A DNA stretch of 35,568 nt from Brevinematales bacterium (lineage in GTDB: Bacteria; Spirochaetota; Brevinematia; Brevinematales; Thermospiraceae), in assembly GCA_013177995.1 (NCBI GenBank), contig JABLXN010000019.1, positions 1 to 35,568 of the forward strand, given 5' to 3'. The notes beneath the pieces are model-generated. The model was given only the letters and a program-made list of their open reading frames with translations, was not told the DNA's origin and did no database searches. Each line of letters begins with the position of its first letter. Within the stretch, counting starts at the first letter, position 1. The translations under genes and the position numbers were made by a program. Shown piece after piece: positions 17,863 to 35,568 of this stretch.

Positions 17863-18318
17863 TTACCATTTCCTTCCCATTTTGGTGCCACGACCGGCAC
17901 GAACGGGAGCATTCTGGAGTTGCTGTCTCTGTTCAGGCGTGAGAACCTTGATCATCTCCAGTTCAGCCTCAAAACGGCGCTGGGCAATCTTCTGCTGCAC
18001 AGCCTGCAACTTAGCATGGAGATCTTTTGCCTTCTTCTCATCAACGGTGGCTGCTGTCATCACCTTGTGAAGATCATAACGGATCTGATCAGCCTCTGCA
18101 TCAAGAGAAGCGATATCCTTGCGCAGGTTCTGCTGAATGGTGAAAATCTTGTCCCGCTGATCCTGCGTGAGGTTGGTGATCAATCCTATCCCTCGCACCC
18201 CATAACCGGCTTGAGGATCACCAGGCCCAGCGCCTCTTCCCATTCCAGGTCCCATCTGCCCGAACAGAAGGGAACTCCCAACAACACTCATGGCTACGGC
18301 CAACATGACTCTTTTCAT
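17863..18318 (-). CDS. Spy/CpxP-like (LTxxQ) periplasmic protein
   Basis: A 151-residue exported protein. Its signal peptide is MKRVMLAVAMSVVGSSLLFG. A Gly/Met-rich stretch (QMGPGMGRGAGPGDPQ) follows, then an all-helical body. The two LTxxQ-type repeats are LTQDQRDKI and LTPEQRQQL, as in Spy and CpxP, which act as periplasmic chaperones or envelope-stress sensors. The tail RAGRGTKMGRKW is basic. The ATG has AAGGAGGAG upstream. A second gene of the same kind lies at 18803 in the same orientation. The 201-bp repeat element occupies the space between them. A metal-binding role cannot be excluded given the methionines. Confidence 0.75.
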   Translation of the reverse strand: MKRVMLAVAMSVVGSSLLFGQMGPGMGRGAGPGDPQAGYGVRGIGLITNLTQDQRDKIFTIQQNLRKDIASLDAEADQIRYDLHKVMTAATVDEKKAKDLHAKLQAVQQKIAQRRFEAELEMIKVLTPEQRQQLQNAPVRAGRGTKMGRKW

Positions 18319-18389
18319 ACTCTCCTCCTTGCGGTGAGTTTTGTGTTTTCACCTTAATAAGACCTCAAAAAGAAAAAAAGTTGCAAAAA

Positions 18390-18590
18390 GAGACCCTTGC
18401 GCGGGTGTTTTCTTCCCATGTCTGGGTCAGGGGCTTTGCCCCTGAAACCCCGTTTTTTCCATTTACAAGGGCTTATTTGTCTTTTTTTGTTCAAAGGAAT
18501 AGTTTTATTTATTACGTTAAGGAACATTTTTATACTATTTTTGTTTTTTACAACTTTTTTGAGACCTTCGCACATTCGTGCAAAGGTCTC
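18390..18590 (+). mobile_element. 201-bp MITE-like repeat element, copy 1
   Basis: A non-coding element bounded by GAGACCCTTGC (18390-18400) and GCAAAGGTCTC (18580-18590), which are inverted repeats matching 10 of 11. A hairpin TCAGGGGC-TTT-GCCCCTGA lies at 18427-18445. The 3' end is a 13-bp stem (18561-18590) with loop ATTC and one mismatch. Copy 2 at 30285-30485 has exactly the same length. The last roughly 130 bp also match copy 3 (35442-35568, reversed). Both flanks are AAAAA, which could be a target duplication but is low-complexity. It sits between the two Spy-like genes. Confidence 0.75.
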
Positions 18591-18660
18591 AAAAAGAGAG
18601 GCTTATTCTCTCAATACCGTGAAGAAGACATTGGCATGGGAAAGAGAGGCTATATCCATG

Positions 18661-18729
18661 TTTCAACAAAACAGGGTTTGCTGAAAGATGGGAATAGCAC
18701 AAAGAAGCCCCTCTCCCAAAGAGAGGGGC
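18661..18729. repeat. Two hairpins in the gap between the Spy-like genes
   Basis: At 18661-18686 TTTCAACAAA pairs with TTTGCTGAAA across a 6-nt loop with one mismatch. A similar, perfect 12-bp hairpin is at 35104-35135. At 18707-18729 GCCCCTCTC pairs perfectly with GAGAGGGGC around CCAAA. The second could be a weak terminator on the minus strand. I see no gene in 18319-18802. Confidence 0.5.
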
Positions 18730-29747: not shown

Positions 29748-29775
29748 ATTGTAATGCCAGAAGAAAAAAAAATCA
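29748..29775 (-). promoter_or_regulatory. Promoter of the 29113-28090 operon
   Basis: On the minus strand TTGATT (29770-29775) and TACAAT (29748-29753) are separated by 16 bp. Repeat family 2 copy B lies about 60 bp upstream. The -35 TTGATT is the same hexamer as in the dapB promoter, which also carries that repeat. Confidence 0.65.
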
Positions 29776-29814
29776 ACTGATAAGATTTTTCTCAAAGAGA
29801 AAAAAATATGCCCC

Positions 29815-29899
29815 TTGTCGTTCCACATATGAAACTGAATACCTATTTCCACATTTCTTAATGAACAGGGAAATAACACGAGAAAGCTCTGTTCTTTCA
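29815..29899 (-). repeat. Dispersed repeat family 2, copy B
   Basis: Read on the minus strand this matches 50-128: AACAGA-GCTTT, then GTTCAT, GAAATGTGGAAATAG, TATTCAGTTTCATATG and TGTGGAACGACA. Identity is very high over the inner 50 bp and lower outside. End positions are good to within one or two bases. Confidence 0.7.
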
Positions 29900-29945
29900 C
29901 TCCTTTTTTTTCTGTACCCCACTTCGACTTCGCTCAGTATCCACC

Positions 29946-30216
29946 GGGCCGCTTTTGCGGTCGTGTGTCTTTTGCCGCAAGGGGAAAGTCCTTCCGAAGT
30001 GAGGGTGCGTATCAGTTGAAAGTTGAAAGTTTGTAAAGTTTATAAAGTTAGTCGCAGGACTCAGGAGGACGAGTTGTGGTTGCCGAAGTCCCGAGGACGA
30101 GGCAATGTCGCCCACGGAGGAAGGACTTTCCCGGAAAGAGAAGATGTCTTTCTGTTTGCCCGCAAAAGCGGCCCATTGTCCGTCCGAGGCGCATGCGTAG
30201 CATGCGACGAGGACAA
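29946..30216. repeat. Large nested inverted-repeat structure
   Basis: An outer 15-bp pair, GGGCCGCTTTTGCGG (29946-29960) with its exact complement (30160-30174), encloses an inner 14-bp pair, GGGAAAGTCCTTCC (29982-29995) with its complement (30119-30132). Directly adjacent, a hairpin at 30176-30216 has outer TTGTCC/GGACAA and inner CGCATGC-GTA-GCATGCG. The centre holds AT-rich GTTGAAAGTTGAAAG-like sequence. GACTTCGCTCAG just before it (29926-29937) is of a kind often found in intergenic repeats. No protein is credible here. It may be a mobile-element remnant or a structured RNA. Confidence 0.6.
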
Positions 30217-30284
30217 CGCCCCTTTTGCCCGTACGGGAGTGCTTTGTGAAAGAAGAAAAATGGATAACAAAAATAGCCCAAAAC

Positions 30285-30485
30285 GAGACCCTTGCATGGG
30301 TGTTTTCTTCCCCTGTTTGGGTCAGGGGCTACGCCCCTCTCCCCCGATTTTTCTGTTCACAAGGGCTGGTTTGTCTTTTTTATTCAAAAAAATCGGTTTA
30401 TTTATTACGGCAAGGAACATTTTGATACTAATTTTTGTTTCTTTATTACTTTTTTGAGACCTTTGCACATTCGTGCAAAGGTCTC
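30285..30485 (+). mobile_element. 201-bp MITE-like repeat element, copy 2
   Basis: Bounded by GAGACCCTTGC (30285-30295) and GCAAAGGTCTC (30475-30485), the same length as copy 1. The hairpin AGGGGC-TAC-GCCCCT (30324-30338) keeps the stem of copy 1 with a different loop. The 3' hairpin (30456-30485) is a perfect 13-bp stem with loop ATTC. The five bases outside each end are AAAAC, a possible target-site duplication. It lies between the inverted-repeat structure and the ABC-transporter promoter. Confidence 0.78.
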
Positions 30486-30509
30486 AAAACTAAAAAAGAA
30501 AAGATGGTC

Positions 30510-30566
30510 GAACAACTATTCAGTTTTTGTGTGAAGATAACCATTCTGTATGAATGTGGAACGACA
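30510..30566 (+). repeat. Dispersed repeat family 2, copy C (partial)
   Basis: Contains ACTATTCAGTTTT near 30514 and the full box TGTGGAACGACA at 30555-30566, but the segment between them differs from copies A and B. The -10 of the next promoter is 52 bp after the box, against 50 bp in copy A. Confidence 0.5.
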
Positions 30567-35080: not shown

Positions 35081-35103
35081 AGACCCACCAACGGCTATCA
35101 CCC

Positions 35104-35135
35104 TGTTTCAGCAAAAGCCCATCTTTGCTGAAACA
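35104..35135. repeat. Perfect 12-bp hairpin between convergent genes
   Basis: TGTTTCAGCAAA (35104-35115) and its exact complement (35124-35135) enclose an 8-nt loop. It lies 24 bp after the phosphatase stop and 50 bp after the stop of the minus-strand small ORF. No T tract follows on either strand, so it is not a standard intrinsic terminator. The hairpin at 18661-18686 has the same stem core. Confidence 0.6.
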
Positions 35136-35184
35136 TCGCCATAGCAAACATTCCCCTTTCTCCCAACCCCCTCTCCAATCCCCC

Positions 35185-35441: not shown

Positions 35442-35568
35442 GAGACCTTTGCACGAATGTACAAAGGTCTCAAGAAAGTAATAAAAAAACAAAAAGTAGT
35501 ATAAAAATGTTCCTTTCCATAATAAACAAGCCCATTTTTTTGGATAAAAAAGACAAATAAGCCCTTGT
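35442..35568 (-). mobile_element. 201-bp MITE-like repeat element, copy 3 (cut by window end)
   Basis: Read on the minus strand it ends in the same 13-bp hairpin (35442-35471; loop ATTC, one T-G pair) and matches copies 1 and 2 back to ACAAGGGCTTATTTGTC at the window edge. About 127 of 201 bp are visible. The base just outside the end is C rather than A, so the A-rich flank of the other copies is not part of the element. Confidence 0.75.

Follow-up and report, generated by a model that had tools for sequence, protein, structure and literature searches.

In Neisseria meningitidis, ISNme1, an IS5-family insertion sequence with the ends GAGACCTTTGCAAAA/TTTTGCAAAGGTCTC, has been proposed to move ATR, an A/T-rich type II MITE present in 19 copies (PMC4596501). 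In Porphyromonas gingivalis, BrickBuilt and MITEPgRS carry ends, for example GAGACCTTTGCA/TGCAAAGGTCTC, that match those of the IS5-family sequences ISPg1, ISPg9 and ISPg4 (PMC4596501). ISAba23 is a further IS5-family member of 1249 bp, with 16-bp inverted repeats and a 5-bp target duplication (PMC4110982). Correia elements are 204 bp long and number more than 120 in N. gonorrhoeae (PMC10969869, PMC3898611), and 150 and 711 copies of ERIC are reported from Salmonella and Photorhabdus, respectively (PMC10969869).

Here, we analyzed a repeat element in a window of 35,568 bases, which is the entire contig C11 of a genome assembly of 2,381,186 bases in 57 contigs. The element is very probably a non-autonomous IS5-type DNA transposon (type II MITE), moved in trans by the transposase of an insertion sequence on contig C27 or of a close relative. 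We regard it as a new family of type II MITEs that involves no new mechanism, and a literature search found no report of the 201-bp element. The ISNme1/ATR pair resembles it in its ends, IS5 family, type II character and A/T richness; ATR differs in its 19 reported copies and in belonging to another phylum. BrickBuilt and MITEPgRS are likewise intergenic with similar ends. However, BrickBuilt occurs in 19 copies, contains a 23-nt minisatellite and shows inconsistent duplications (CT, GAAA, AAAAA), whereas the present element lacks this minisatellite and is flanked by a consistent 5-bp duplication. ISAba23, compared as an insertion sequence alone, has ends that nearly equal the right end of the MITE and a published 5-bp duplication, although it is autonomous and comes from Acinetobacter, in another phylum. 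Correia elements are similarly abundant and similar in size, but they have 26-bp inverted repeats and a TA duplication. The copy number of the element is high yet inside the range reported for Correia and ERIC.

The features of the window are as follows.

18385..18389, no strand, AAAAA target duplication, left flank of copy 1 (exact 5 bp)
18390..18590, plus strand, MITE copy 1, full length, 201 bp (from the sequence)
18390..18402, plus strand, left terminal inverted repeat of copy 1, one mismatch against GAGACCYTTGCAC
18561..18590, plus strand, terminal palindrome of copy 1, 30 bp: inner arm (in left-end orientation), loop ATTC, outer arm
18578..18590, minus strand, right terminal inverted repeat of copy 1, which is the outer arm of the hairpin
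18591..18595, no strand, AAAAA target duplication, right flank of copy 1 (exact 5 bp)
30280..30284, no strand, AAAAC target duplication, left flank of copy 2 (single AAAAC in unoccupied counterparts)
30285..30485, plus strand, MITE copy 2, full length, 201 bp
30456..30485, plus strand, terminal palindrome of copy 2, 30 bp
30486..30490, no strand, AAAAC target duplication, right flank of copy 2 (same basis as the left flank)
35442..35568, minus strand, MITE copy 3, reversed, right-end part only (contig end)

The sequence bore out the earlier note in that copies 1 and 2 are both 201 bp long, with the termini GAGACCCTTGC...GCAAAGGTCTC. With two or fewer mismatches, GAGACCYTTGCAC matched the window nine times, against a mean of 1.75 after shuffling. 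The 11-bp terminal inverted pair that had been described is real, but the inverted repeat of the consensus is 13 bp. The flanks AAAAA and AAAAC, read before as 5-bp target duplications, are exact repeats on either side; the AAAAA of copy 1 is weak on its own because the sequence is of low complexity. Copy 3 does match over its terminal 127 bp, but only because contig C11 ends inside it, so that it is not a truncated copy. Further contigs also end within MITE copies (C6:1-127, C30:1-126 and C19:1-168, among others), the pattern to be anticipated where a repeat interrupts the assembly, which makes copy 3 uninformative as regards truncated elements. Our guess is that its length of 127 bp reflects the word length of the assembler.

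The expectation that three copies in one window would mean many in the genome was confirmed. As observed, the left-end pattern with three or fewer mismatches gave 131 genome-wide matches (65 and 66 on the two strands), while a reversed control pattern gave none. The right-end pattern gave 89 and 87 matches, some of which may have been counted on both strands because this end is nearly palindromic. A profile built from 28 copies was then used to scan 387,518 bases fetched around the listed end-pattern matches, yielding 169 non-overlapping matches, of which 112 reached both ends, 31 the right end only, 25 the left end only and one neither; part of the one-ended matches were cut by contig ends. 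Since the fetched places were the 100 listed for each end plus copies near those, there are at least 112 full-length copies. The initial DNA search of the genome with the element likewise gave a lower bound, with 40 of 224 candidates scored. Full-length copies measured 191–208 bp, thus below 500 bp, and contained no transposase gene. The consensus is 201 bp long, bounded by the 13-bp inverted repeat GAGACC[C/T]TTGCAC, inside the span of about 4–30 bp usual for MITEs, and these ends were near-invariant across 74 aligned copies rather than ragged. The mean A+T content of the 112 copies was 0.61, equal to that of their flanks (0.61).

In the proposed mechanism, an IS5-family transposase from C27:24319-25684 or a close relative would be supplied in trans, recognize the 13–14-bp ends GAGACC[C/T]TTGCACG and move the 201-bp unit. 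Insertion would occur at A/T-rich sites by a 5-bp staggered cut, leaving 5-bp direct repeats. Genome-wide, such repeats were present and variable: the flanks were exactly repeated over 5 bp in 57 of the 111 full-length copies with readable flanks, compared to 1.5 for swapped flanks. The remaining 54 had no exact 5-bp repeat, which counts against the proposed mechanism. The longest exact match was 5 bp in those 57, 4 bp in 13 and 6 bp in five copies, and lengths of 2–4 and 6–9 bp were far rarer than 5 bp. When one mismatch was tolerated, 68 of 111 flank pairs matched at 5 bp, against 10.3 for swapped flanks. The duplicated bases were A/T-rich (ATTTT six times, AAAAA five, ATTTC four, then 33 other sequences), with a symmetrical lean around the target, where C preceded in 25/57 and G followed in 21/57. 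The type II character of a MITE entails that duplications are better kept in younger copies, and this was observed: by quartiles of nearest-neighbour identity, from top to bottom, they were kept in 19/27, 14/27, 12/27 and 12/30 copies (P=0.009). Identity to the consensus, the better of two age proxies, showed the same trend less clearly (P=0.065).

Unoccupied sites were analyzed by joining the flanks without the element and comparing them with the fetched DNA; the sites given are among the matches listed. Copy 2 sits within another repeat, whose element-free copies have just one AAAAC at this position (C8:16072, C18:22949 and C21:5489). The copy at C7:14777 has two unoccupied counterparts, C21:5852 and C18:23312, each matching at 100 of 100 bases, and the counterpart of the copy at C18:14476 (AGTTT) lies inside the window at 29992-30090. 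The gene adjoining copy 1 (17863-18318) has homologues in two congeneric genomes, G001 and G002, with 70% and 66% identity, respectively. The 70-bp region upstream of this gene aligns with both genomes up to the insertion edge and no further, and copy 1 is absent from the corresponding place in both. A by-eye comparison indicated that G001 also retains the next gene along. No copy of the element was found by DNA search in G001 or G002.

The 3′ hairpin of 13 bp that had been noticed is real and has 13-bp arms with a 4-base loop. One pair is mismatched in copy 1, and among the 74 aligned copies this pairing is lost in 25. A palindrome makes up the final 30 bp; its inner arm GAGACCTTTGCAC is the left-end repeat in the same orientation, and its outer arm GTGCAAAGGTCTC serves as the right terminus of the transposon. 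The loop (e.g. window 18574-18577) reads ATTC in 88 of 112 copies and its reverse complement, GAAT, in 13, as if the palindrome were flipped now and then. We found 137 palindromes; 27 were outside full-length copies and mostly belonged to cut or deleted elements, and nine were bare enough for inspection. The one at C6:18667 is an internal deletion, because the left part of the element adjoins it. Among the other eight, three had no exact 5-bp repeats (C18:5502, C22:25640 and C36:11010) and five, bare of any other trace of the element, had them, as listed here.

C10:26909, bare palindrome, flanks AAACT
C54:36126, bare palindrome, flanks ACTTT
C45:42538, bare palindrome, diverged, flanks GATAA
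C21:5321, bare palindrome, flanks TTTTT
C45:27146, bare palindrome, flanks TTTTC

In a scripted set that included C6 and left out C45:27146, 4/8 palindromes had 5-bp repeats, against 0/56 swapped pairs. The bare palindromes are probably deletion products of inserted full elements. The left end and the inner arm are direct repeats of 13 bp, and a precise deletion between them would yield a bare palindrome with its 5-bp repeats kept. This route is favored because two ends only 4 bp apart should be hard to bring together. It is doubtful, though conceivable, that the 30-bp palindrome, two back-to-back transposon ends around a 4-base loop, moves as a unit of its own.

A transposase gene with matching ends, for which the earlier note had suggested a search, is present on contig C27.

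C27:24319-25684, IS5-family insertion sequence, 1366 bp (basis: transposase frame and inverted ends)

This sequence begins GAGACCCTTGCACGGGT and ends CGTGCAAGGGTCTC, and perfect 14-bp inverted repeats, GAGACCCTTGCACG, bound the gene. The transposase gene has 383 open codons, and the protein may start at residue 38, judging from its alignment with the nearest relative. The protein matched NCBIfam transpos_IS5_4 (NF033581) with 283.3 bits (cut-off 140) and the Pfam families DUF772 and DDE_Tnp_1 (PF01609, 118.6 bits, cut-off 23). Its own flanks, AGAAA and AAAAA, match at four of five bases, compared to exact 5-bp repeats in relatives. Only one complete copy and one 96-bp fragment (C12:73955-74050) were found in the genome, the latter adjoining a MITE copy. 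The insertion sequence shares its first 17 bp exactly with a MITE copy and agrees with the MITE at 14 of 15 bases on the right, while between the interiors only short, chance-level stretches were alike. This unlike interior indicates a type II relationship as PMC10969869 uses the term, and likeness confined to the ends does not by itself point to descent from the insertion sequence.

Like ends with 5-bp duplications also occur in relatives of the transposase. Of the two best relatives in the plasmid collection, the one on pDCAR1 of Solidesulfovibrio carbinolicus is 46% identical to the C27 transposase, and its element has the ends GAGACCAATGCACAG/CTGTGC..., reading GAGACCAATGCAC and GTGCAGTGGTCTC, with ATATC on both sides. 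The other, on p1 of Desulfolutivibrio sulfodismutans (44.5%), has the ends GAGACCGTTGCAC and GTGCAGCGGTCTC with ATATA on both sides. The ISAba23 transposase is 36% identical, and in a plasmid record (L194) this element spans 1249 bp between GAAACCTTTGCACGAA and TTCGTGCAAAGGTCTC, with no 5-bp duplication in that record. A relative from Candidatus Bealeia (L193, 40.6%) has AAGACCATTGCA at one end and no clear 5-bp duplication. By scan, no GAGACC-type ends were found around three homologues from the same order or phylum (L185–L187) or a broken congeneric one (L188). A search for the element's DNA in 60 relatives gave no meaningful match, with only low-complexity stretches of 21–37 bp in seven genomes. 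The exact palindrome was absent from the genome_contigs and viral_contigs collections, in which peptide patterns, a search that reaches close relatives only, also found no transposase relatives.

The most probable alternative is that the MITE was spread not by the C27 enzyme but by a relative that has since been lost or is absent from the assembly, and that the C27 sequence merely has the same ends. A single complete insertion sequence beside well over a hundred MITE copies, the confinement of the similarity to the ends and an assembly in 57 contigs are all consistent with such an enzyme. However, 17 bp at the left end are shared exactly and the C27 frame is unbroken. The only other DDE_Tnp_1 matches are one related pair, on C38 and, as a broken copy, on C36; they had no matching ends, and no GAGACC-type ends surround the C38 gene. 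Five rve proteins likewise had none, except for a full MITE beside one. We consider this alternative unlikely. A longer autonomous version of the element was also rejected, as the likeness of L069 and L072 beyond its left part is a duplicated stretch (91% over 1016 bp) with no transposase seen. That the C27 insertion sequence is the actual mover of the type II MITE, and still moves it, is what we infer.

L069 (C4:41413) and L072 (C6:60242) are cut left parts of the MITE, each followed by the same stretch of about 1 kb, 91% alike, which is probably the duplicated end of a surface-protein gene. The second DDE_Tnp_1 transposase, on C38 (L097), is open over 456 codons, and its C36 copy (L098, C36:10543-13710) is split in two frames, with a bare palindrome on one side and a full MITE on the other. 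A further insertion-sequence family of the genome comprises three nearly identical transposases that match rve weakly (L101, C54:86066; L102, C8:11213; L103, C12:109439) and are open over 409, 409 and 376 codons, respectively. An rve transposase of 607 codons followed by an ATPase-like frame (L099, C55:53217-56474) presumably resembles Mu-type phage genes A and B.

It is very improbable that the repeat is a structured element with a regulatory or RNA role (a terminator, promoter carrier or small RNA) that stays fixed at genes and was spread by duplication instead of transposition. Such an element would account for the strong hairpin at either end of the consensus and for the location of most copies outside long frames, since 94 of 106 copies examined had no frame of at least 200 amino acids overlapping by more than 40 bp (mechanical frames). 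However, the 5-bp duplications and unoccupied sites contradict fixed placement, and the duplications already largely refute this explanation. Moreover, the earlier statement that stems are kept while loops vary held only weakly: changes on both sides of a stem were seen in 2/24 pairs and 2/1773 cells, and covariation was close to that of shuffles. Pairing is kept because the sequence is kept, giving no convincing sign of selection on structure. In the window, no Rfam family reached its gathering score, with only chance-level matches below, and these results led us to reject an RNA element. A promoter and terminator scan inside copies 1 and 2 gave nothing convincing; copy 1 has no promoter-like site, and the sole terminator-like site lies outside the element. 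The neighboring genes of 106 copies were oriented '--' in 30, '++' in 17, '-+' in 34, '+-' in 17 and otherwise in eight, from which no clear rule emerged.

REP-associated tyrosine transposases recognize hairpins and leave no target duplication; a REP/BIME-like palindromic repeat moved by such an enzyme would suit the palindromic right end and an abundant, intergenic repeat, but it is scarcely credible given the exact 5-bp duplications of 57/111 copies and the presence in the genome of an insertion sequence of DDE type whose ends match.

The MITE interpretation agrees with the copy number, the constant ends, the 5-bp duplications, the unoccupied sites, the open transposase frame between matching ends and the like ends and duplications in relatives of that transposase. 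No host function was found by frames, covariation, Rfam or the promoter and terminator scan, and the most economical view is that of a selfish element surviving between genes.

Other repeats were also observed nearby. A second, larger, modular dispersed repeat occupies 29760-30284 of the window, and also about 41-128 and 30486-30563, with at least 70 genome matches at E<=1e-10 (40 of 116 candidates scored); it has repeatedly been a site of MITE insertion. At 18649-18698 and 35094-35145 are two inverted pairs of GCTGAAACANGGTNATAGC-like sequence (four matches, against 0.11 by shuffles), which look like a third, short palindromic repeat family and also lie near several MITE copies on other contigs.

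These results document a high-copy IS5-type MITE family alongside a plausible autonomous partner in one genome, and tie the 5-bp target duplication to GAGACC-type ends across several phyla. The MITE copies also explain break points of this assembly. The bare palindromes pose a testable question, namely the minimum length at which an IS5-type transposon is still mobile; if the 30-bp units jumped, they would be transposable elements of nothing but two ends.
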